A DNA stretch of 64,000 nt, taken from contig NZ_BSDR01000001.1 of assembly GCF_027925305.1 (NCBI RefSeq), positions 1,205,001 to 1,269,000 on the forward strand, in the 5' to 3' direction. Positions 16,784 through 62,023 of the stretch are shown here, one piece after another (position 1 is the stretch's first letter; the number at the start of each line of letters is the position of its first letter). The DNA comes from Desulforhabdus amnigena. Its GTDB lineage: Bacteria > Desulfobacterota > Syntrophobacteria > Syntrophobacterales > Syntrophobacteraceae. Below the pieces are notes generated by a model. It worked only from the letters and a program-made list of their open reading frames with translations. It did not search any database and was not told where the DNA came from. The position numbers and the translations under genes were made by a program.

Positions 16784-17569
16784 TTAAGATGCAGCAACCG
16801 TCCTGATTTTTTGCAGATTTTCTGCAATTTCTTCAAGACTGGCACGGGTTTCCTCTTTCAGATCCTCGGGAAAGATTCCCTTGAGGTCCGCTTCGATCAG
16901 CTGATCGTCATATGGGATAAACCCAAGGAACCGATAGTCCGGCAAACTCCTGGTCAAAAATTCTCGATCTTTTTCTCCCCTGATTTTATTCCCCACCAGA
17001 CCAATATTCGTGAGCCCGATATCCAAACCCAGATCTTTTATCCTGAGGGCAGTCTCAATGCTGCGTCGTCCCGGTTCCACAACGATAATGAGGCAATTCA
17101 CCGCCTTGGAAGTCCCGCGGCCGAGGTGCTCGATTCCAGCCTCCATATCCATGACGACGATTTCGTCGCGTCTGAGAATCAGGTGTTGAACCAGATTTTT
17201 CAAAAGAACGCTCTCAGGGCAAACACAACCCGTTCCCCCTTTTTTCACGCCGCCCATCACCATGAGACGAATGCGCTCACCGCTGGGCACCGCCAGCTTT
17301 TCAGGAAGGTCATCTACCTGGGGATTCAATTTGAAAAATCCTCCAAAGCTCCCGGGAACGGATCCTGTCCGCTCAGCCACAAGCTCTTTCATTTTGGCGA
17401 TGGGAACAATATTGGACGCATCTTTGATGCCGAGACCATGTCCCAGATTGGCATCGGGATCGGCATCAATGGCGAGCACGGTGTTTCCTTGACCTGCAAA
17501 CCATTTCACCAAGAAAGCGGAAAGAGTGGTTTTCCCAACTCCGCCTTTACCACTGACTGCAATTTTCAA
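16784..17569 (-). CDS. cooC: CooC-type ATPase for CO dehydrogenase nickel insertion
   Basis: A 261-residue MinD/ParA-family ATPase. The deviant Walker A GKGGVGKTTL is at the extreme N-terminus, followed by DADPDANLGHGLG, the CxC metal-binding segment in TGCVCPESVLL, and a Walker B-like VVMDMEAGIEH. This order is typical of CooC/AcsF, which loads nickel into the C-cluster of carbon monoxide dehydrogenase. A TTG start at 17569 is chosen because GGAGG lies eight bases before it and the product then begins MKIAVSGKGG like its homologues; GTG at 17584 is the alternative. No CODH genes are in the window, so the target enzyme is encoded elsewhere. Confidence 0.87.
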   Translation of the reverse strand: MKIAVSGKGGVGKTTLSAFLVKWFAGQGNTVLAIDADPDANLGHGLGIKDASNIVPIAKMKELVAERTGSVPGSFGGFFKLNPQVDDLPEKLAVPSGERIRLMVMGGVKKGGTGCVCPESVLLKNLVQHLILRRDEIVVMDMEAGIEHLGRGTSKAVNCLIIVVEPGRRSIETALRIKDLGLDIGLTNIGLVGNKIRGEKDREFLTRSLPDYRFLGFIPYDDQLIEADLKGIFPEDLKEETRASLEEIAENLQKIRTVAAS

Positions 17570-17590
17570 TGTCTTATCCTCCACTGGAAT

Positions 17591-18244
17591 TTATTTGAAG
17601 AGAGCCGCAGCTTGCAAACCCCGGGCAATGCCCATGAGACGATAGACAACCATCCCGCTCACCACGGCAATATCTTCCACAGCCAATTCGTTCTGAATCG
17701 CTGAATCAAACAATATACTCGCTTCCGGTTCAAATTCTTCATCCCCCTCCCAGAGAACGATTTGAAGGGCAATCCGGGGAAACACCTGGAACGCCATTCC
17801 CACATCACCCGTTTCTACGGGGAAACCTCCAAGCCTTTGCGCACACGTCCGAAAGAGATCCGCATCTTTACCAAACGTGGCGAGAAACGGGTCTCGTGCC
17901 CTTCGCTGAAAGGCGTCGAAATAAAAATGACCATCCGGAATCTGACGAAACGTGATGAGCTCCCCCGTCGCCGGCTTCCCCGTCGCATGAAGGAGATAGT
18001 GACAAATGAGGATCTTTTCCGGTAAGGGAACTTCTCCCTCCTGCCCGTCTCTGACCACATCCACCGACTCACCCACCTGAACGATTATCGGAGTCCCGAG
18101 AAATGAAAGCTTCAACCCTACAACTCCGTTATCGGAAGCCGCGATATCCACTTCAGAAGCTTTCGCCAGATCCGTCAGGTTTGATTTCTTGAGCTCCAAT
18201 GCTGCAAGCCGAAAGGATTCCTTATAATCGTCTATTCGAGCCAC
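17591..18244 (-). CDS. DUF3786-domain protein
   Basis: A 217-residue soluble protein of unknown function. The pattern LILCHYLLHATG-like (here ILICHYLLHATGKP), LITFRQIPDGHFYFDAF, and LPRIALQIVLWEGDEEFEPEASILFD fits DUF3786, which I recall accompanying acetyl-CoA pathway genes. The GTG start has AGAGGGGG upstream. It is the promoter-proximal gene of the unit with cooC and folE2, so a role around CO dehydrogenase or corrinoid proteins is a reasonable inference from context only. No Cys ligand cluster or membrane segment is seen. Confidence 0.65.
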   Translation of the reverse strand: MARIDDYKESFRLAALELKKSNLTDLAKASEVDIAASDNGVVGLKLSFLGTPIIVQVGESVDVVRDGQEGEVPLPEKILICHYLLHATGKPATGELITFRQIPDGHFYFDAFQRRARDPFLATFGKDADLFRTCAQRLGGFPVETGDVGMAFQVFPRIALQIVLWEGDEEFEPEASILFDSAIQNELAVEDIAVVSGMVVYRLMGIARGLQAAALFK

Positions 18245-18781
18245 CCGATTCCCCCTCTCTTTTCAATCTTGAGTACGAACCCAGCTCATCCGCGTTCTCA
18301 CTGCAGGGCTCCACAAAACCAGATAAACTGCAACTGCAGAGGCACATGTTCGAGCATACCTTGACATCATCTTTCCCCCTCACCACCACTGTCTGGATCG
18401 GTCGAAAAATATTCGCTCTCAGTGCCGGCAACAAAACTTTGGCTCTGAAATGCCGTTTTTTTTCATTATATGTTTCAGCCGTCATATAAATCAACATATA
18501 GTTCCCCCGGAACGTTTCCGGTTCGTTCTTCCAGATGTCCCGTTCCTTGAAATCCCGTGATCCGGTGATTATGCAATGGTTGGTGTACGCACTCTTGTAG
18601 AAGTGGCGTTCTTACAGCGATTAAAGATAGTCACGGCGAGGCCCCCCTCTGACAGAAGGTTCAATTCTCAGGCGTGCGGAGTATATGAACGGCTTACAAG
18701 TATTGCTCTTGATCGCATTGAAGAAGTTTTGCCAGTGATAGCTTTCTTTCAATTTTCAGGGAAATAGAGGAGATATGATTT
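18245..18781. other. Intergenic region between divergent units
   Basis: No supported gene. A 91-codon minus-strand frame (18222-18497) overlaps the DUF3786 start and shows no recognisable pattern. The region must hold the promoters of the DUF3786-cooC-folE2 unit and of the selenoprotein-thioredoxin unit; I see no clear repeat or riboswitch. Confidence 0.4.
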
Positions 18782-19093
18782 ATGAGCGGTTGCGTTGAAC
18801 TCACCAAAGCAATGCTGAAGGATCCAATAAACCTTCACATCCAAAGTGAATGGCTCGATTTTGAAGCCGCCCGAAGAATAGCCGACCGGAAGGCTCATGA
18901 AATGGCCCCGTTCTCCATGCTTTTGGCGTGGTTCGACAAGCGGAAAGCGGAATTTTCCCCCAAAGTCGAATGATGCGATGCAAAAAAGCCAGGTTGGCTC
19001 GTTTATGCTGAAAATCGCGGCGGGAAAATCATCATCAGCATCAATGATGAAGAATATGTGTTCGTCTATAAAGATCTATCGGACGCATTTTGA
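18782..19093 (+). CDS. Candidate small selenoprotein (Sec encoded by in-frame TGA at 18971-18973)
   Basis: Read normally the frame stops after 63 codons at TGA 18971-18973, but the same frame continues for 39 sense codons to a second TGA at 19091. The continuation is protein-like (KPGWLVYAENRGGKIIISIND, then EEYVFVYKDL) and completes a compact alpha/beta domain, giving 103 residues with Sec64 in the context SPKVE-U-CDAKKPGW. A 5-bp stem with a GGT loop begins 13 bases after the TGA, as bacterial SECIS elements require. GAGGAG precedes the ATG. It is followed by a thioredoxin gene 22 bases downstream. It vaguely recalls the small AF1514-like family, but I do not recognise it securely. The Sec-Cys pair suggests a redox or metal-binding function. 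Confidence 0.75.
18987..18999 (+). promoter_or_regulatory. SECIS-like hairpin for Sec64 of the small selenoprotein
   Basis: AGCCA (18987-18991) and TGGCT (18995-18999) form a 5-bp stem with apical loop GGT. The loop begins 18 bases after the TGA, within the window where SelB-dependent elements place their loop G. It lies inside the coding frame, as usual in bacteria. Confidence 0.6.
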
Positions 19094-19115: not shown

Positions 19116-19568
19116 ATGAACCAGGAAAGCGTTATTGTCGGTTGCACTCATTGTGGAGCCAAGAACCGCATTCCCAAAAATCGGCTGAAAGATCGCGCAA
19201 CTTGCGGTAAATGCCACCATCCGCTTACTCTTTCAGCCCGCTACCCGGAGGATCCTGTAGAGGTGACCGACCAAAGCTTCAACAGTGAGGTCCTCGGTTT
19301 TCCGGGACCGGTCGTCGTATTTTTCTGGCAGCCCTGGTGCGGGTACTGCCAAAGGTTGATGCCGGATTTCAATGCATTGGCTCGGGAATATTCCGGCCGC
19401 ATCAAGTTCGCTAAAATTCACCTGGATCGGAATCCCATCTCCGGAGGCAACTATACAGTACAAAGCGTGCCCACCCTCATCCTGATGAAAAGGGGAAGGC
19501 AGGTCGACCGCATTGTGGGAGCGCTTCCCAAAATGGAATTGGATCGGCGCTTGCGTGTACTCCTTTGA
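19116..19568 (+). CDS. Thioredoxin-2-like protein with N-terminal zinc ribbon
   Basis: A 150-residue cytoplasmic disulfide reductase. Residues 10-35 carry a zinc-ribbon pair (CTHC...CGKC) as in TrxC, and a thioredoxin fold follows. The active site is WCGYC rather than the usual WCGPC, which should alter the redox potential; the cis-Pro is in SVPTLILM. The ATG at 19116 lies 22 bases after the end of the preceding candidate selenoprotein, so the two are most likely one transcript and may be redox partners (inference from adjacency). The gene faces the frd-like operon and shares a bidirectional hairpin at 19609-19636. Confidence 0.85.
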   Translation: MNQESVIVGCTHCGAKNRIPKNRLKDRATCGKCHHPLTLSARYPEDPVEVTDQSFNSEVLGFPGPVVVFFWQPWCGYCQRLMPDFNALAREYSGRIKFAKIHLDRNPISGGNYTVQSVPTLILMKRGRQVDRIVGALPKMELDRRLRVLL

Positions 19569-19682: not shown

Positions 19683-21356
19683 TTATTCGGCTTCCAGCTT
19701 GCCCTGAACTTCCAGAAGGCGACGTGCGGCAACTTCATCGGTCGAGTAATCCGGCAGCAGAATGGGCGCTACCATGGGGTTCTCGATACCTGCTTCGGCA
19801 AGTTCCTTCTCGTACTTCACCACATGATCCAGCGTCAGCTTCTTCAATTCAACACCGTTCTTTACATACTTGGCGGCAGCGACACCGGAACGGCGACCGA
19901 AAGTGATAACATCCTGAAGGCTGTTGCCCATCAGGCGGTTTTCACCGTGCAGACCGCCGGTACATTCGCCGGCGCTGTAGAGACCGGGGATAGAGGTTTC
20001 GCAGTCTGCGTTGATGGCGATACCACCGTTCTGATAGTGGAGTGTGGGATAAACGAGCATCGGTTCCTTGCTGATGTCGATGCCGTGGCGTTCGAACTGA
20101 ATGAACTTGGCGGGAAGTTCGCGGCGAACCGTCCCCTCTCCGTGAAGCATGTCGATCATGGGCGAATCCAGCCACAGGCCGTAACGTCCGGTAGGAGTCA
20201 AAACAGCCTTGCCCACTTCAATGGCTTCCTTGATCAATTCAGCGGATTCAACGTCGCGAGGTTCAAGGGGGAAGCAGAATTGCTCGCCGTCGATGTTGAG
20301 CACGTGGGCACCCAGACCGCGGACTTTTTCCGTGATGAGCAGACCGACGTTCTGTTCGGGATAGGCTACACCCGTGGGGTGATACTGGGTGGAAAAGAGG
20401 CATGTCGTCCCGACACCTGCGCGGTAAGCTAGAACGACACCATCCATGGTGGCGCCGTAATGGTTGGTACACGCAAATCCCTTGATGTGCAGTCGGCCGT
20501 TTCCACCCGTCGCGATGATGGTGGCCTTGGCCTTGGCAATAAAGAACTCGCGGGTTTCCATGTTGTAGAGAATCGCGCCCGCACACTTTCCGTCTTCGTC
20601 CAGGATCAATTCAACGGCGGGAGTGAATTCAAGGATCGTGATCTGATCCCCACGGTTACGGGCTTCATCCCTCAACACGCGCATGATTTCAGCACCTGTC
20701 ATGTCACCGGCCGAATTCATACGCTTACGGCTGGAACCGCCGAAATGGCGGGACATGAGGCGGCCATCGGGGAACTTGTTGAACATCATGCCGAGGCTTT
20801 CCAGCCAGGCGATGGAAAGGGGGGCATCATGAGCCAAAGCGGCCACCAGGTCGGGCTGGTTGGTGAAGTGGCCGCCACCGATGGTATCCATATAATGGTA
20901 ATAGGGGGAATCGGCTTCCTGCACTGCAGCCTGAATACCACCTTCAGCCATCATGGTATTGGCATCCCCGTGACGCAGCTTGGTGGTCATGATGACGCGA
21001 ACACCCGCATCGGCGGCTAAAAGTGCTGCAGAGGTCCCTGCACCGCCGCCACCGATGATCAGGACGTCTGTTTCGAAATCCGCATGTGAAAGGTCGACAT
21101 TTTCAGGGCGAAGCATGGAACGGGATTCCAGCATGGAAGCGACTTCTTCAGGCAATACCAGGCCCTTATCAGCACCCGTTCTTACAGGGCGACGGCCTTC
21201 CTTCTGATAGTCGGGATGGAATTTCTCAAGAACAACAGCCCGCTCTTCCAAGGTCAATGCAGGGTAGTTCTCGCCGCGGCGCGCTCTTTCCAGACGTGCG
21301 GGCCGAGTGGCTTCAACCCTCTTGATCAACTCTTTCATTTCCGGAGTGTAACCCAT
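19683..21356 (-). CDS. Fumarate reductase/succinate dehydrogenase-like flavoprotein subunit
   Basis: A 557-residue FAD subunit. An N-terminal extension of about 95 residues precedes the dinucleotide fold IGGGGAGTSAALLAADAG (101-118). Substrate-site blocks are present: QYHPTGVAYPEQNVGLLITEKVRG, HYQNGGIAIN, and SAGECTGGLHGENRLMGNSLQD with its catalytic Arg/His pattern. The position that carries covalent FAD-His in classical SdhA/FrdA (S-H-T-V) reads A-Asn133-T-M, so FAD is probably non-covalent. The neighbours are an FrdB-like Fe-S protein and HdrB/HdrC-like proteins, as in thiol:fumarate or methylmenaquinol:fumarate reductases. It probably reduces fumarate or oxidises succinate; the direction is not readable. 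AGGAG precedes the ATG. Confidence 0.85.
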   Translation of the reverse strand: MGYTPEMKELIKRVEATRPARLERARRGENYPALTLEERAVVLEKFHPDYQKEGRRPVRTGADKGLVLPEEVASMLESRSMLRPENVDLSHADFETDVLIIGGGGAGTSAALLAADAGVRVIMTTKLRHGDANTMMAEGGIQAAVQEADSPYYHYMDTIGGGHFTNQPDLVAALAHDAPLSIAWLESLGMMFNKFPDGRLMSRHFGGSSRKRMNSAGDMTGAEIMRVLRDEARNRGDQITILEFTPAVELILDEDGKCAGAILYNMETREFFIAKAKATIIATGGNGRLHIKGFACTNHYGATMDGVVLAYRAGVGTTCLFSTQYHPTGVAYPEQNVGLLITEKVRGLGAHVLNIDGEQFCFPLEPRDVESAELIKEAIEVGKAVLTPTGRYGLWLDSPMIDMLHGEGTVRRELPAKFIQFERHGIDISKEPMLVYPTLHYQNGGIAINADCETSIPGLYSAGECTGGLHGENRLMGNSLQDVITFGRRSGVAAAKYVKNGVELKKLTLDHVVKYEKELAEAGIENPMVAPILLPDYSTDEVAARRLLEVQGKLEAE

Positions 21357-21435
21357 AGTATTCTCCTCATACTCCCTAACAAATTTTAATATTTGTCTTT
21401 TTAAAGTCTATCAGCAGTCTCTACAAAACGTGGGA

Positions 21436-22239
21436 TCAAAGATACGGATCGCTTGCAGGCATCCAGGTTCCGTTGGGAGCCATATCCGGTTCACGTTCCC
21501 TTTCTTTATAGCGCTTTTCCAGCTCTTCATGGCTCATGGTCTGAAGCTGCTTCAGCAGATCGTCATACTTGCCCGATTCGATCTCTTTGACCCGCTTGGC
21601 AAGGTGCTCGGCCTTGGGCATGATATATTTTCCGTACATGCGGCGGGCCAGCTGGGCGATGTGGTACTGGGGCAGTTCACCCATGCAACGGCTGGCGCAC
21701 ATGCCGCACTGGATGCAGTCGAAGGAAAGTTCTGCGGCTTTGGCAATATCCCCCTGCTTTAAAGCGGAGATATAACCCAATACATCCACCCCCATAGGGC
21801 ATGCCTTGGTACAGTTGTTACAAGCCACACAACGGAACAGCTCGGGATAAAGTGCATAGATCGTCTCGGGGGTAGGCTCGAGATCTTCAATTTTGTAGGC
21901 TGCGCGGTTTGCGGGATAGAAAGGAATCTGAGCCAGGTACATGTTGGGCTCTACGACCGTCTGGCAGGCAAGACCAAAATGCAGCTTGTAGTCGCCGGGC
22001 TTGCGATATACGGTAGGGCAGGCACCGCAAATACCACCACGGCAGCCGGCACCCCTCAGGAACTTGAAGCCGGCATATTCCATAGCTTTCATGATGGTCA
22101 GAGTCTCGGGAACTTCGTACTTCTTTCCCATGATATAGACTGGAATGGTCTTCGCCCCTTCGGGGAGAATGGCCCGGTCGCCCGTTGCAACCTGTACTTT
22201 CTTTTTTGGCTTGGATTCACTGCTTTCATGATGCGACAT
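21436..22239 (-). CDS. Fumarate reductase/succinate dehydrogenase-like iron-sulfur subunit
   Basis: A 267-residue electron-transfer subunit. The N-terminal ferredoxin part holds a [2Fe-2S] Cys motif GCRGGICGACPTVYR with a later Cys in FGLACQTVV, and the C-terminal part holds two cluster motifs, CVACNNCTKACPMG and CIQCGMCASRCMGE. A charged tail of about 50 residues ends the protein. The ATG at 22239 has GGAG eight bases upstream; TTG 22245 would add two residues. It lies 79 bases upstream of the flavoprotein gene in the same operon and would wire its FAD to the HdrB/HdrC-like proteins. Confidence 0.88.
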   Translation of the reverse strand: MSHHESSESKPKKKVQVATGDRAILPEGAKTIPVYIMGKKYEVPETLTIMKAMEYAGFKFLRGAGCRGGICGACPTVYRKPGDYKLHFGLACQTVVEPNMYLAQIPFYPANRAAYKIEDLEPTPETIYALYPELFRCVACNNCTKACPMGVDVLGYISALKQGDIAKAAELSFDCIQCGMCASRCMGELPQYHIAQLARRMYGKYIMPKAEHLAKRVKEIESGKYDDLLKQLQTMSHEELEKRYKEREREPDMAPNGTWMPASDPYL

Positions 22240-22335
22240 ATTCAATTCTCCTGAGAAAAACTGTTAGTAACTTCATATGATCGTCAAGATCAACCCCTCG
22301 GCTGTTCTGAGTGAACCTCATCCGACAGCGTCTTT

Positions 22336-23214
22336 TCAAACGGGGAAATTTTTAGTCTTAAGAAATTCCGATGAGCACTTGCTGTTGAGGTCAAATCGGC
22401 AGGCCTCATTCCCCAGACCCAACGCCATGGCGAGCAATTGAGTGAAGTAGTAAACAGGAACTTCTTTGGAAAGCTTCTTTTTGGCTATGACCTCAGGCTG
22501 CTTCTTGGAAAGGTTGAATTCACAGAGAGGACAGCTGAGCACCACGGCTTCTGCGCCCGCATTTAGAGCGGAATTGAGAATCTGACCACTCACGTCGTTG
22601 GCTGCATCGGGATTGGCCAGAATCTGATAAGAACCGCAGCAAGTGGTGGCATCCGCGAAATCTATGGGTGTTGCACCGATGGCTTCAAGAAACTCCCCCA
22701 TGATCTTCGTATCGCCTATGGGTTCGATGGCTACATTGCGGGGACGCACCAGAGTACAGCCGTAATACATAGCCACCTTCAGGCCATTGAGAGGAACTTT
22801 CACGGCTGCGCGCACCTTATCCCAACCGACCTGGTCGCGCAGGAAGTTCAGGAAATGAACTACTTCCACTTCCCCGTTGTAATCCCTCTCTTCGTTCATG
22901 AAGTCGTTGATTGTCTTCCTCTTCACCTCATCTTGCCTCATCAGCAAATTTGCCCGCGCAAGGGTGTTGTAGCACATCGAGCAGAGAGTAACGACCGTGT
23001 CGCTCCCCTGTTCCAGTGCGCGAACCAGGTCACGCACAGGAGCCACTTGGTGAATGAGATCGTCGTCAGCGAGAGAGTGAACGGCGCCACAGCAGTTCCA
23101 ACGGGTCAACTCCTCAAAATCCACACCGAGGGCGGCCATTGAGGCGACTGCAGCGTCCTCCAAGTTTTTCGCTTTCGTCTTCAGGGTACATCCTGGATAA
23201 TAGCTGACTTTCAT
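22336..23214 (-). CDS. HdrB-like CCG-domain protein (electron-acceptor subunit of the frd-like complex)
   Basis: A 292-residue protein with two CCG domains (DUF224). The first shows YPGCTLKTKAKN, WNCCGAVHSL and LCSMCYNTL; the second shows YYGCTLVRPRN, TTCCGSYQIL and SCPLCEFNL. In heterodisulfide reductase HdrB these Cys bind noncubane [4Fe-4S] clusters that cleave disulfides. In fumarate reductases of the Tfr and Mfr types an HdrB-like part accepts or delivers electrons from thiols or quinol. AGGAG lies just upstream of the ATG. Genes run hdrC-like, hdrB-like, frdB-like, frdA-like. Confidence 0.88.
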   Translation of the reverse strand: MKVSYYPGCTLKTKAKNLEDAAVASMAALGVDFEELTRWNCCGAVHSLADDDLIHQVAPVRDLVRALEQGSDTVVTLCSMCYNTLARANLLMRQDEVKRKTINDFMNEERDYNGEVEVVHFLNFLRDQVGWDKVRAAVKVPLNGLKVAMYYGCTLVRPRNVAIEPIGDTKIMGEFLEAIGATPIDFADATTCCGSYQILANPDAANDVSGQILNSALNAGAEAVVLSCPLCEFNLSKKQPEVIAKKKLSKEVPVYYFTQLLAMALGLGNEACRFDLNSKCSSEFLKTKNFPV

Positions 23215-23223
23215 ATCACTCCT

Positions 23224-23631
23224 CTAACTTGTCAATTTTCTGAAGCAGCTGACCATAGCAATCTGGGGCAAATCGCGGACCGTCTCGGCGTCAAGCTTCG
23301 AAGGTTCATACATATTGACGTTTTTCCTAAGGGTCAGAAGCCGGATAGCCTCCATGACTTTGGCAATGTCAATGCCTCTCGGGCAATTCACAGTACAGGA
23401 ATGGCAAGAAGCACACATCCAATAACTCTTGGCATCCATAACGGCATCTTCCAAACCAAGCTGTGTCATTCGCATGATCTTGCGCGGAACAACATCCACC
23501 TTGTCGGACATGGGGCATGCGCCACCGCAGGTGCCACACTGAAAGCACATGTTGATGTCCTGCCCGCTGAGTTTGATGACTTTCTCGATGAAGTCACGCT
23601 TGATGGTTTTCTCTGAAATTTCAATCGGCAT
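23224..23631 (-). CDS. HdrC-like two-cluster ferredoxin subunit
   Basis: A 135-residue iron-sulfur protein with two [4Fe-4S] motifs, CFQCGTCGGACPMS and CASCHSCTVNCPRG, each in a short alpha-helical ferredoxin fold as in HdrC. The ATG at 23631 (GAGGGAAA upstream) gives MPIEISEKTIKRDF; an ATG at 23676 would add 15 unconserved residues. It is the first gene of the operon, 9 bases ahead of the HdrB-like gene. It would connect the noncubane clusters of HdrB to the FrdAB-like dehydrogenase. Confidence 0.87.
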   Translation of the reverse strand: MPIEISEKTIKRDFIEKVIKLSGQDINMCFQCGTCGGACPMSDKVDVVPRKIMRMTQLGLEDAVMDAKSYWMCASCHSCTVNCPRGIDIAKVMEAIRLLTLRKNVNMYEPSKLDAETVRDLPQIAMVSCFRKLTS

Positions 23632-24804
23632 GGTTTCCCTCGTTTCGTAAAAATGTTTTCGATAAGAACCTCTCACCGGCTCTTATCAACCGGCCAACTC
23701 ACATCCAGAAACTTCCTTGCACTTCATTCTCTTTGCCAGAAACTTCATCCAACACAGCCATCTTCAGGACAGAGAATCCGCTTCTGAATGAAAATCAACC
23801 ACGTGATACCTTACTTTGCAGACCGACGAACAAAATCCAACCCCTTCATGTTGCATATATCTACATGTCGGGCGCAACGCCATCCCTTCAATCACCGGCA
23901 ATAGTTCGAGAGTTATAATCTTCACGAAGTCTTTTCCGCTACACATAACCCAACACATATTTGAAGACAAGAATCAGTCGTAAATCTTTCCCCCGCCATT
24001 CCAAGGGGCTCATCGAAACCACATACCACCCAATGGGCAATCTCCCACACAACCCTTTCCGCGACTTGTCTTAACAAATCTGTTTCAACCAATCCTTGTG
24101 ATTTCTTCCACGAGTCTTCATCTGCGCCTCCCTTTTTTCCTGCATGAGTCCGTCCGAGTTACCGACCGCCCCGACAAACCGGATGCATTTTAAATGAACT
24201 GACCGGACGCGCATCTCCAATCATACAACAGGGATTTCCAGCAACGGGAAAACCCATTGCGCATCACATTCCAAAGTTCAAACCGATTTTTAAAAGGGGG
24301 CTTATTCGAACTACAGGGAAAAAAAGGCGGAAGAATCAAGAGGGAGGAAACTACTCCTCGGTTCTCAAAGCATGTAACCCAAAACGGCACGTTGAAAAAA
24401 TCAACGCAAAAATTTGGAATTAAGCCGAACAGCAACATCAAACCTGGGTCACTCCGCTTGGATTGTGAAGCGCATCAGATAGTTAAAGACCTCTAACAGA
24501 CCGAGCTGTCAACATCAGAATGAACATGAGAGCTTGGGAAATCCAATTCAAGTTTGGTTTTTATTATATTCCCTTATGTTTTGTCAAATTTTTTCATCAG
24601 CATAAAACGGATCTTGCTTTAAAGGTAAAAACCTCAGCTTTTCATCCATTTGGAATCATCTCGCACTCAAAAAGGCCGATAAAAAGTTTCAGTTTAAAAT
24701 TCTTGAAAAATCTTTACAATTCCTCTCCGGACGAAGAACGCCAGCCATAACGGCAGGAAACGAAAAATTCATCATTTTATCGGTTAAAATAAAAGAAAGA
24801 CATT
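23632..24804. other. 1.2-kb gene-poor region upstream of the frd/hdr-like operon
   Basis: No gene can be supported. Short frames (24257-24496 and 24520-24750 on plus, 24190-24441 on minus) lack recognisable motifs and good ribosome sites. The right half (24540-24800) is strongly A/T-rich. This space must contain the promoters for the leftward hdrC-hdrB-frdB-frdA-like operon and the rightward metallo-hydrolase. I see no riboswitch or clear repeat. Confidence 0.4.
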
Positions 24805-41184: not shown

Positions 41185-41268
41185 TCGAGACAAAGCCAAA
41201 CCCTCCGTGAGGCGGGGACGGAAAGCCTAGGGTCTCTTTCTCTTAGAGACAGCCGGGTTGCCTGGGCA
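41185..41268 (+). ncRNA. Cyclic di-GMP-I (GEMM-I) riboswitch aptamer
   Basis: The order of conserved blocks matches GEMM-I: CAAAGCCAAACC, a stem CTCC closed by a GTGA (GNRA) tetraloop, GGGGACGGAAAGCC, a second hairpin (GTCTC...GAGAC), and AGCCGGGTTGCC. Aligned by eye to the Vibrio Vc2 RNA, the ligand-contact G20, the intercalating A47 and C92 are kept, and the G21-C46 pair is swapped to C-G, a compensatory change that supports the fold. G at position 20 favours c-di-GMP over 3',3'-cGAMP. It stands 43 bases before an RHH-PilZ gene. Confidence 0.85.
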
Positions 41269-59683: not shown

Positions 59684-60112
59684 ATGACACATCCCCATTT
59701 TGAGCCTGTCATTCTTTGCTTCCTCTGCACCTGGTGAGCATACGCCGCTGCTGACCTGGCTGGGGTCAGTCGAATGCAATATCCGACAAACATTCGGATC
59801 ATCAGAGTCATGTGTACGGCAAGTGTTTCTCCGCACCACATCCTGCGAGCCTTCCAGGAAGGGGTGGATGGAGTCTTCGTCGGCGGTTGTCATCTCGGCG
59901 ATTGCCATTATCTGTATGGCAATCATTCGGCAAATAAACGTGTACGGTTCTTAAGGCAACTGCTCACTTTCTCGGGCGTTGACGGAGAAAGGCTGAGTTC
60001 AACTTGGGTTTCTTCCGCGGAGGCCCCAGAATTTGTAATGGCAATAAAGGGTTTTATTGAAAAACTGAAGATTCTGGGTCCCTCTCCACTTCGCAAGGCA
60101 GAAGCGGGTTGA
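59684..60112 (+). CDS. MvhD-like subunit with selenocysteine (TGA at 59735-59737)
   Basis: A 142-residue MvhD-like selenoprotein. The frame starts at ATG 59684 (AAGGA upstream), reads MTHPHFEPVILCFLCTW, then TGA as Sec18, and goes on AYAAADLAGVSRMQYPTNI. The sequence on both sides aligns with the Cys paralogue at 58344 (FLCNWCSYAGADLAG), so Sec replaces the second Cys of the CxxC-type pair. A 6-bp SECIS-like stem follows. Selenium-containing MvhD/VhuD-like proteins are known in methanogens and related bacteria. Pairing a Sec and a Cys copy in one operon suggests two distinct docking or redox positions. The yedF and selD genes follow 193 bases later. Confidence 0.92.
59751..59769 (+). promoter_or_regulatory. 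SECIS-like hairpin of the Sec-MvhD gene
   Basis: CTGACC (59751-59756) pairs with GGTCAG (59764-59769) around the loop TGGCTGG. The loop starts 20 bases after the TGA. Confidence 0.75.
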
Positions 60113-60976: not shown

Positions 60977-62023
60977 ATGACACATTCTCGGGTGGAACTG
61001 GCCAAAACAGTACGTGCAGCTGGTTGAGCTGCCAAAATAGGTCCGGGGGACCTGGCTGAAATTCTCGAAAATCTGCCTCTCGAAAAAGATCCCAACCTGC
61101 TGGTGGGGCGGGAAACTTCCGATGATGCCGGAGTTTACCGTTTGACAGAGGAAACGGCTCTGGTCCAGACCATCGATTTCATCACTCCGGTGGTGAACGA
61201 CCCCTACGACTTTGGGAGGATCGCCGCCGCCAACGCTCTAAGTGACGTCTATGCCATGGGGGGCCGTCCTCTCACGGCCATGAATATCGTGTGCTTTCCG
61301 GTCAAGAAGATGGACAAGAAGATCCTGGGAGAGATTCTCAGGGGCGGGTTGGAAAAAGTTCATGAAGCAGGAGCGGTTCTGGTGGGGGGGCACAGCGTTG
61401 AAGACCCGGAAATCAAATTCGGGCTTTCAGTCACAGGGCTGGTGCACCCTCAAAAGGTCCTGGCCAATAGCAGGGCACAGGTGGGAGATGCCTTGATCCT
61501 CACCAAACCTCTCGGTACGGGAATCCTGGCAACCGCCATCAAAGCGGGGCTGGTTTCCGATGAAGCAGAAAGGGAAGCCATCGAGGTCATGGCGACATTG
61601 AACAAGACTGCGGCGGAAGCCATGAGTGCGTACACGGTGCATGCCTGCACGGACATCACCGGTTTCGGGTTACTGGGACATGCGCTCGAAATGGCTGTCG
61701 GCAGCAAGGTCTCCATCACCCTGGACGTCAAGAAGGTGCCCCTGCTCACCGAAGTCCTGCATAACCTTCAAATGGGTTTGGTCCCGGCGGGAAGCTATGC
61801 CAACCGGAATTTCTGTGCACACCAGGTCAGGCAGATCCAAACCATCGACCCCGCCCTGCTGGACCTGCTCTCCGATGCACAGACATCGGGAGGCCTTCTC
61901 ATTTCACTTCCCGAAAGTGAATCGCAGAAACTGGTGCAGGACCTCAGGAACCGCGGAGTCTCCAGTGCTGCGGTCGTCGGACATGTCACAGGTACAGGAA
62001 AAGGAACGATTGACCTTATTTGA
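60977..62023 (+). CDS. selD: Selenophosphate synthase with active-site selenocysteine (TGA at 61025-61027)
   Basis: Makes selenophosphate from selenide and ATP, the selenium donor for tRNA-Sec and selenouridine. The protein of 348 residues reads TVRAAG-U-AAKIGPGDL at its N-terminus: Sec17 is at the catalytic position where other SelD have Cys or Sec, followed by the essential Lys20. Downstream motifs are ETSDDAGVYR, RIAAANALSDVYAMGG, and GGHSVEDPEIKFGLSVTG. The long frame would miss its active site if started after the TGA (61103). GGGGTGA precedes the ATG. A SECIS-like stem lies 11 bases after the TGA. Confidence 0.96.
61039..61053 (+). promoter_or_regulatory. SECIS-like hairpin of selD
   Basis: AGGTCC (61039-61044) pairs with GGACCT (61048-61053) with loop GGG, beginning 18 bases after the TGA. 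Confidence 0.75.

Follow-up and report, generated by a model that had tools for sequence, protein, structure and literature searches.

The closest described counterpart of the protein considered here is AF1514 of Archaeoglobus fulgidus, an archaeal sulfate reducer. AF1514, a solved member of the DUF5619 family (PF18505; structure 3c0f), is annotated as uncharacterised. Another member is encoded in the 64,000 nucleotides of Desulforhabdus amnigena contig NZ_BSDR01000001.1 that were analysed as a whole (the window). Both proteins share the domain and the fold, but AF1514 has Cys-Cys where the window protein has a predicted Sec64-Cys65. Selenoproteins with Sec and Cys in adjacent positions have been described. 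According to a 2026 review (PMC13188914), a CU motif occurs in SaoC, HgcA and KCU-star and a GxUC motif in form 1 of the CopZ-family (2Fe-2S)-binding protein, and such families were likewise found from Cys/Sec pairs. What they have in common with the window protein is the position of Sec next to Cys, while their domains differ. With the selenoproteins of the thioredoxin fold (Trx, Grx, Prx) the window protein shares the suggested redox use of Sec, but Sec64 belongs to neither a UxxC nor a CxxU motif, and there is no Cys three residues to either side.

The same review comprises 119 prokaryotic selenoprotein families and subfamilies, an inventory which its authors call the most comprehensive to date (PMC13188914). 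The family is not listed in its Table 1, and PF18505, DUF5619, AF_1514 and 3C0F were not found in a search of its text. Nor is DUF5619 named among the nine new families in the available part of the deep-Sep paper (PMC12013277), and the NCBIfam models of its three domain-less families (NF049953, NF041197, NF049942) were not matched by the window protein. A literature search, as far as its sources were accessible, yielded nothing on DUF5619 or on AF1514 as a selenoprotein, the papers on AF1514 being unrelated by title. Missing from the inventory and unnamed among the deep-Sep families, the protein appears, within the openly licensed literature, to be an undescribed variant with Sec of an established domain family, and it would add a family to the 119 published ones. 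The first-pass annotation had called it an unrecognised selenoprotein. This holds insofar as the sources searched contained no description, but the protein is not wholly unknown: it belongs to DUF5619/AF1514, whose structure has been solved by crystallography, and represents the Sec version of that family.

The interrupted DUF5619 gene

The gene is located at 18782-19093 on the plus strand and comprises 103 codons. It starts with an ATG at 18782, is interrupted by one in-frame TGA at 18971-18973 (putative Sec64) and ends with a normal stop codon (TGA, 19091-19093), exactly as the first-pass annotation had it. A Shine-Dalgarno-like sequence (AGAGGAG, 18766-18772, plus strand), likewise read from the sequence, lies 9 nt 5' of the ATG. 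Around Sec64 the predicted protein reads PKVEUCDAKK, the TGA being followed by the codon of Cys65 (18974-18976, plus strand). The read-through frame matched PF18505 with an E-value of 9.1e-29 (99.8 bits, gathering cut-off 25) over residues 15-96 and profile positions 3-85 of 85, which agrees with the expectation of a continuous domain over the TGA. Moreover, each half matched the profile separately (residues 1-63, 2.2e-11; post-TGA part, 9.9e-11). Judged from these matches, the TGA interrupts a real domain. An NCBIfam search with the protein gave nothing at E 1 or better except a spurious hit (E 0.11) far below the cut-off.

The AlphaFold2 model of the protein (pLDDT 89.8, pTM 0.83) matched 3c0f with a Z-score of 12.8 and an rmsd of 2.1 over 85 residues, followed by a next match with a Z-score of 2.1. 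Thus, 3c0f was the sole strong match in the fold searches, and a thioredoxin-fold chain was not among the matches listed. The model places residue 64 in the loop that connects a strand (57-59) to a helix (71-78).

Conceivably, the TGA acts as a genuine stop codon and what follows it is left over from a disrupted gene, since degenerate relatives exist, namely a fragment in genome G013 and, in G344, an additional copy devoid of Cys64. However, the sequence after the TGA shows conservation at the protein level: residues 65-97 revealed 64% identity to the counterparts in both G026 and G030 when read in frame, compared to 33-39% in the other two frames. This comparison used frame identity alone, dN/dS having been set aside because synonymous sites were saturated in most pairs. 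The frame also possesses a normal stop at a short distance from the next gene, the machinery for Sec insertion is present, and five species have their TGA in one and the same conserved Cys column. A broken gene is thus a very unlikely explanation.

The in-frame TGAs of the G013 fragment (L046/L072) and of a further fragment (L016) look degenerate and were not counted as Sec. The same applies to the second DUF5619 copy of G344 (L073, G344:C91:33302-33523), in which the TGA lies elsewhere in the frame and which is probably degenerate.

Column 64, selenium machinery and the hairpin

Within the 69 aligned rows, column 64 was occupied by Cys in 62, by Sec in five and by Pro in one, and there was one gap in the faulty row L024 of G022. 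The 66 rows retained after leaving out L016, L024, L045, L046, L073 and L087 (fragmentary or faulty) and the AF1514 fragment contained 61 Cys and five TGA, the latter from five species, in line with the earlier expectation of Cys or Sec at this position across the family. AF1514 has Cys here as well, and column 64 is the only near-invariant one among the cysteine columns. In addition to the window gene (G000, UC), a TGA was detected in G026 from the same genus and in two members of the same family, G030 and G037, the residues around Sec reading EUSS in G026 and G030 and EUCG in G037, and also in JAMCYH010000176 (CUGEG). Column 65 is less uniform: Cys occupies it in 48 of the 69 rows, and the five Sec forms have Cys twice (window, G037), Ser twice (G026, G030) and Gly once (JAMCYH). 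The proposal that the Sec64-Cys65 pair constitutes the centre is therefore not supported in this form, and the pair is not essential, the relative from the same genus having Sec-Ser.

In the tree, which kept the AF1514 fragment and is based on few columns with many open forks, the JAMCYH sequence was placed beside a Cys form (95/87), and G037 beside G036 (100/99), a member of the same genus with Cys at column 64. From these groupings at least three Cys/Sec changes may be inferred, and the fewest changes on the tree as drawn are four. The gene pair of this one genus (L071 of G037 and L027 of G036), with Sec and Cys, respectively, at the same site, has retained identical hairpin bases.

In the window genome, selB (383 bits, cut-off 242) and tRNA-Sec (72.9 bits, cut-off 47) were identified. 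SelB exceeded its curated cut-off in all five Sec genomes (G000, G026, G030, G037 and that of JAMCYH), and tRNA-Sec was found in the four that were searched (G000, G026, G030, G037; 72.5-74.8 bits). As 51 of the 55 genomes from the class have selB above the cut-off, its presence permits Sec without singling out the TGA genes of DUF5619. The earlier statement that selD and a Sec-MvhD are encoded in the window was correct: selD (60977-62023, plus strand; TIGR00476, 410 bits) has its own in-frame TGA at 61025 (UAAK), and a Sec-type FlpD/MvhD gene with one TGA (59711-60079) is situated close to it. TGA codons were present in six of the 16 FlpD matches in the window genome.

A SECIS-type element is a hairpin that follows soon after the UGA and has a G early in its loop. 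Downstream of the window TGA, the previously reported 5-bp stem was recovered as a SECIS-like hairpin (AGCCA-GGT-TGGCT, 18987-18999, plus strand) with 18 nt between the TGA and the loop. In each of the five Sec genes, a hairpin with 5 bp or more in its stem and a G among the first two bases of its loop stands 17-18 nt downstream of the TGA. Stems of at least 5 bp occurred in 5/5 Sec genes versus 14/61 Cys genes (Fisher 1.3e-3, kinship ignored), scores of at least 12 in 5/5 versus 12/61 (Fisher 7e-4, kinship ignored), this limit being the lowest Sec score and chosen after the Sec scores had been seen. Folds of 50, 38 and 80 nt containing the window hairpin were little or no better than those of shuffled sequences (z -1.07, -0.01 and -0.21). 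When the window protein was recoded at random with synonymous codons, 20% of the versions scored as high and 30% reached the class of score 12. Per gene, this class was reached by 6-30% of the recodings, because a stem of this kind is favoured by the codons of the conserved KPGWL stretch. In G026, the 10-bp stem was equalled in 0.2% of the recodings. Covariation in a fixed register was not significant for the five Sec sequences, since 48 of 500 shuffles were as high. The hairpin was rejected as stand-alone proof of Sec, given that single folds resembled shuffles and that the KPGWL codons produce a similar stem in some Cys relatives. On the strength of these sequence comparisons, the hairpin alone is weak evidence, while the set of five genes is informative. 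The protein sequence may even have eased the change to Sec by way of the KPGWL stem.

The poor performance of most single hairpins against shuffled or recoded sequence, G026 excepted, would also suit a passage of the TGA without selenium, either by a near-cognate tRNA or by programmed read-through, resulting in a short and a long product. By contrast, the TGA replaces Cys exactly and does so in genomes that possess SelB (5/5) and tRNA-Sec (4/4 searched), there are other Sec genes in the same window, and a product of 63 residues would be deprived of the conserved P70-W72-Y75 half. This explanation is the least probable of those considered. Decoding of the TGA at 18971 as Sec is very probable, and the first-pass annotation of a selenoprotein is upheld by the TGA on a conserved Cys column in five species together with selB and tRNA-Sec in the genome. 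Three findings that would have spoken against it, homologues ending at the TGA, an unconserved downstream part and the absence of selB or selC, were looked for and none was made. Gene callers that stop at UGA would truncate the Sec protein at residue 63.

Thioredoxin, dsrA and a possible redox role

The next gene on the same strand (19116-19568, plus), separated from the DUF5619 stop codon by 22 nt, encodes a TrxC-like thioredoxin with an N-terminal Zn ribbon and a WCGYC site (PF00085, 1.1e-24; PF21352, 1.8e-9), although its score with the TrxC model (112.6 bits) is below the cut-off of 125. The suggested connection to thioredoxin is right with regard to this direct neighbourhood but cannot be generalized, as seven of 72 distinct loci have a thioredoxin gene as their immediate downstream neighbour in the same orientation (G000, G026, G034, G035, G037, G233 and G373). 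These 72 loci include fragments, 67 of them having at least 400 nt downstream, and the search was carried out with relatives of the window thioredoxin, so distant thioredoxins could escape it. The thioredoxin neighbours fall in two bacterial families (f1 and f54). No relative of the window thioredoxin was found beside the Sec genes of G030 and JAMCYH, i.e. two of the five.

DUF5619 itself was detected in 30 of the 55 genomes from the class and in 43 of 395 genomes of a phylum-wide sample. For two further classes the counts were 14 of 85 and 13 of 29 genomes, all these samples overlapping each other. None of the 15 and 14 matches in the latter two classes contained an in-frame stop (85 and 29 genomes, overlapping with the 395), and the family was absent from all 14 well-known control genomes. 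The window genome harbours a second DUF5619 gene, 44% identical and without an in-frame stop.

All 43 DUF5619 genomes of the phylum-wide sample possess dsrA (best E 5e-161 or better), compared to 188 of the 395 above the curated cut-off (hypergeometric 8e-16; the pairing was read by eye from two result tables and the statistics ignore kinship). CdhC (acetyl-CoA synthase family) was present in 40 of the 43 versus 269 of the 395 (5e-5, kinship ignored). In the genomes compared (G018, G022, G023), dsrA does not adjoin DUF5619 but lies 31-34 kb away on the same contig. This distribution suggests that the DUF5619 protein serves sulfite/sulfate reducers, either as a selenol/thiol redox protein or as a sulfur carrier, and the co-occurrence of dsrA in 43 of 43 genomes indicates where its function should be looked for.

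Most likely, the product serves sulfate reducers as a small redox protein of the selenol/thiol type. SelB and tRNA-Sec would read the TGA at 18971 as Sec, giving a 103-residue protein predicted to have the AF1514 fold, in which Sec64 would stand in for the single near-invariant cysteine of the family. In organisms that possess dissimilatory sulfite reductase, residue 64 would act as the reactive nucleophile. After oxidation, it might be resolved by a nearby cysteine, which would be Cys65, Cys4 or Cys63 in different species, and be reduced again by thioredoxin, in this lineage possibly by the TrxC-like protein encoded 22 nt downstream. Candidate partners are common: many bacterial forms add an N-terminal Cys4 (50/69 rows; window codon at 18791-18793, plus strand), which four of the five Sec forms also have, and the fifth has Cys63, so that all five carry another Cys at position 4 or 63. 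On the other hand, a resolving cysteine is not required in all members, because six of the 61 Cys forms are without any partner cysteine among the positions checked. Given Sec, a redox function is somewhat favoured, and reduction by the window thioredoxin is put forward tentatively. To the explanation as a whole, a thioredoxin-reduced thiol/selenol redox protein of dsr organisms with Sec at position 64, we assign a probability of roughly 0.7.

The same cysteine pattern would also be compatible with a real Sec64 in a protein that is not a disulfide reductase but a carrier of metal, metalloid or sulfur/selenium, for instance a persulfide/selenopersulfide relay in dissimilatory sulfur metabolism. 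Lone Cys forms (6/61) suit a carrier or ligand, multiple cysteines are common (Cys4, Cys64 and Cys65 together in 41 of 61 Cys forms), and dsrA accompanies DUF5619 in every genome of the sample. However, the thioredoxin neighbours in two bacterial families and the location of dsrA away from DUF5619 in the three genomes compared speak against a carrier, which we regard as unlikely. Slightly more doubtful still is the wider speculation that dissimilatory sulfite reduction includes DUF5619 as a component so far unrecognised, a persulfide/selenol relay or reductase of dsr-bearing anaerobes, archaeal ones included, with a reactive residue that is Sec in some lineages and either Sec or Cys within one genus. 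The change from Cys to Sec marks residue 64 as reactive in a family that has a crystal structure and for which no function was found; the function of DUF5619 therefore becomes directly testable.

Further genes around the locus

Divergent to the DUF5619 gene, a DUF3786 gene (17591-18244, minus strand; PF12654, 6.7e-50) and a gene for a MinD/ParA-type ATPase (16784-17584, minus strand; PF01656, 5e-20), presumably CooC-like, are located, and FolE2 is encoded on the same flank. The thioredoxin gene is followed by a convergent block of four genes (19683-23676, minus strand) for a fumarate-reductase/TfrA-like flavoprotein, an FeS protein, an HdrB-like and an HdrC-like protein, whose NCBIfam matches were all below the cut-offs; the FeS protein had no NCBIfam match at 1e-10. 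The ATPase and folE2 recur in G026, G034, G035, G036 and G037; three of these genomes (G026, G036, G037) have the flavoprotein there as well. No neighbour common to the whole DUF5619 family emerged from a scan of 88 neighbouring ORFs, in which no Pfam family was found in more than four (best 25 of 127 families); these ORFs were most of the downstream and upstream ones, and selection of the longest ORF missed some thioredoxins. At another locus (L041, G054:C2), DUF5619, DUF3786 and the CooC-like ATPase are encoded in a row on one strand, i.e. the same three genes as in the window in a different arrangement. Finally, the window contains a c-di-GMP-I-GGC riboswitch (41186-41266, plus strand; 63.9 bits).
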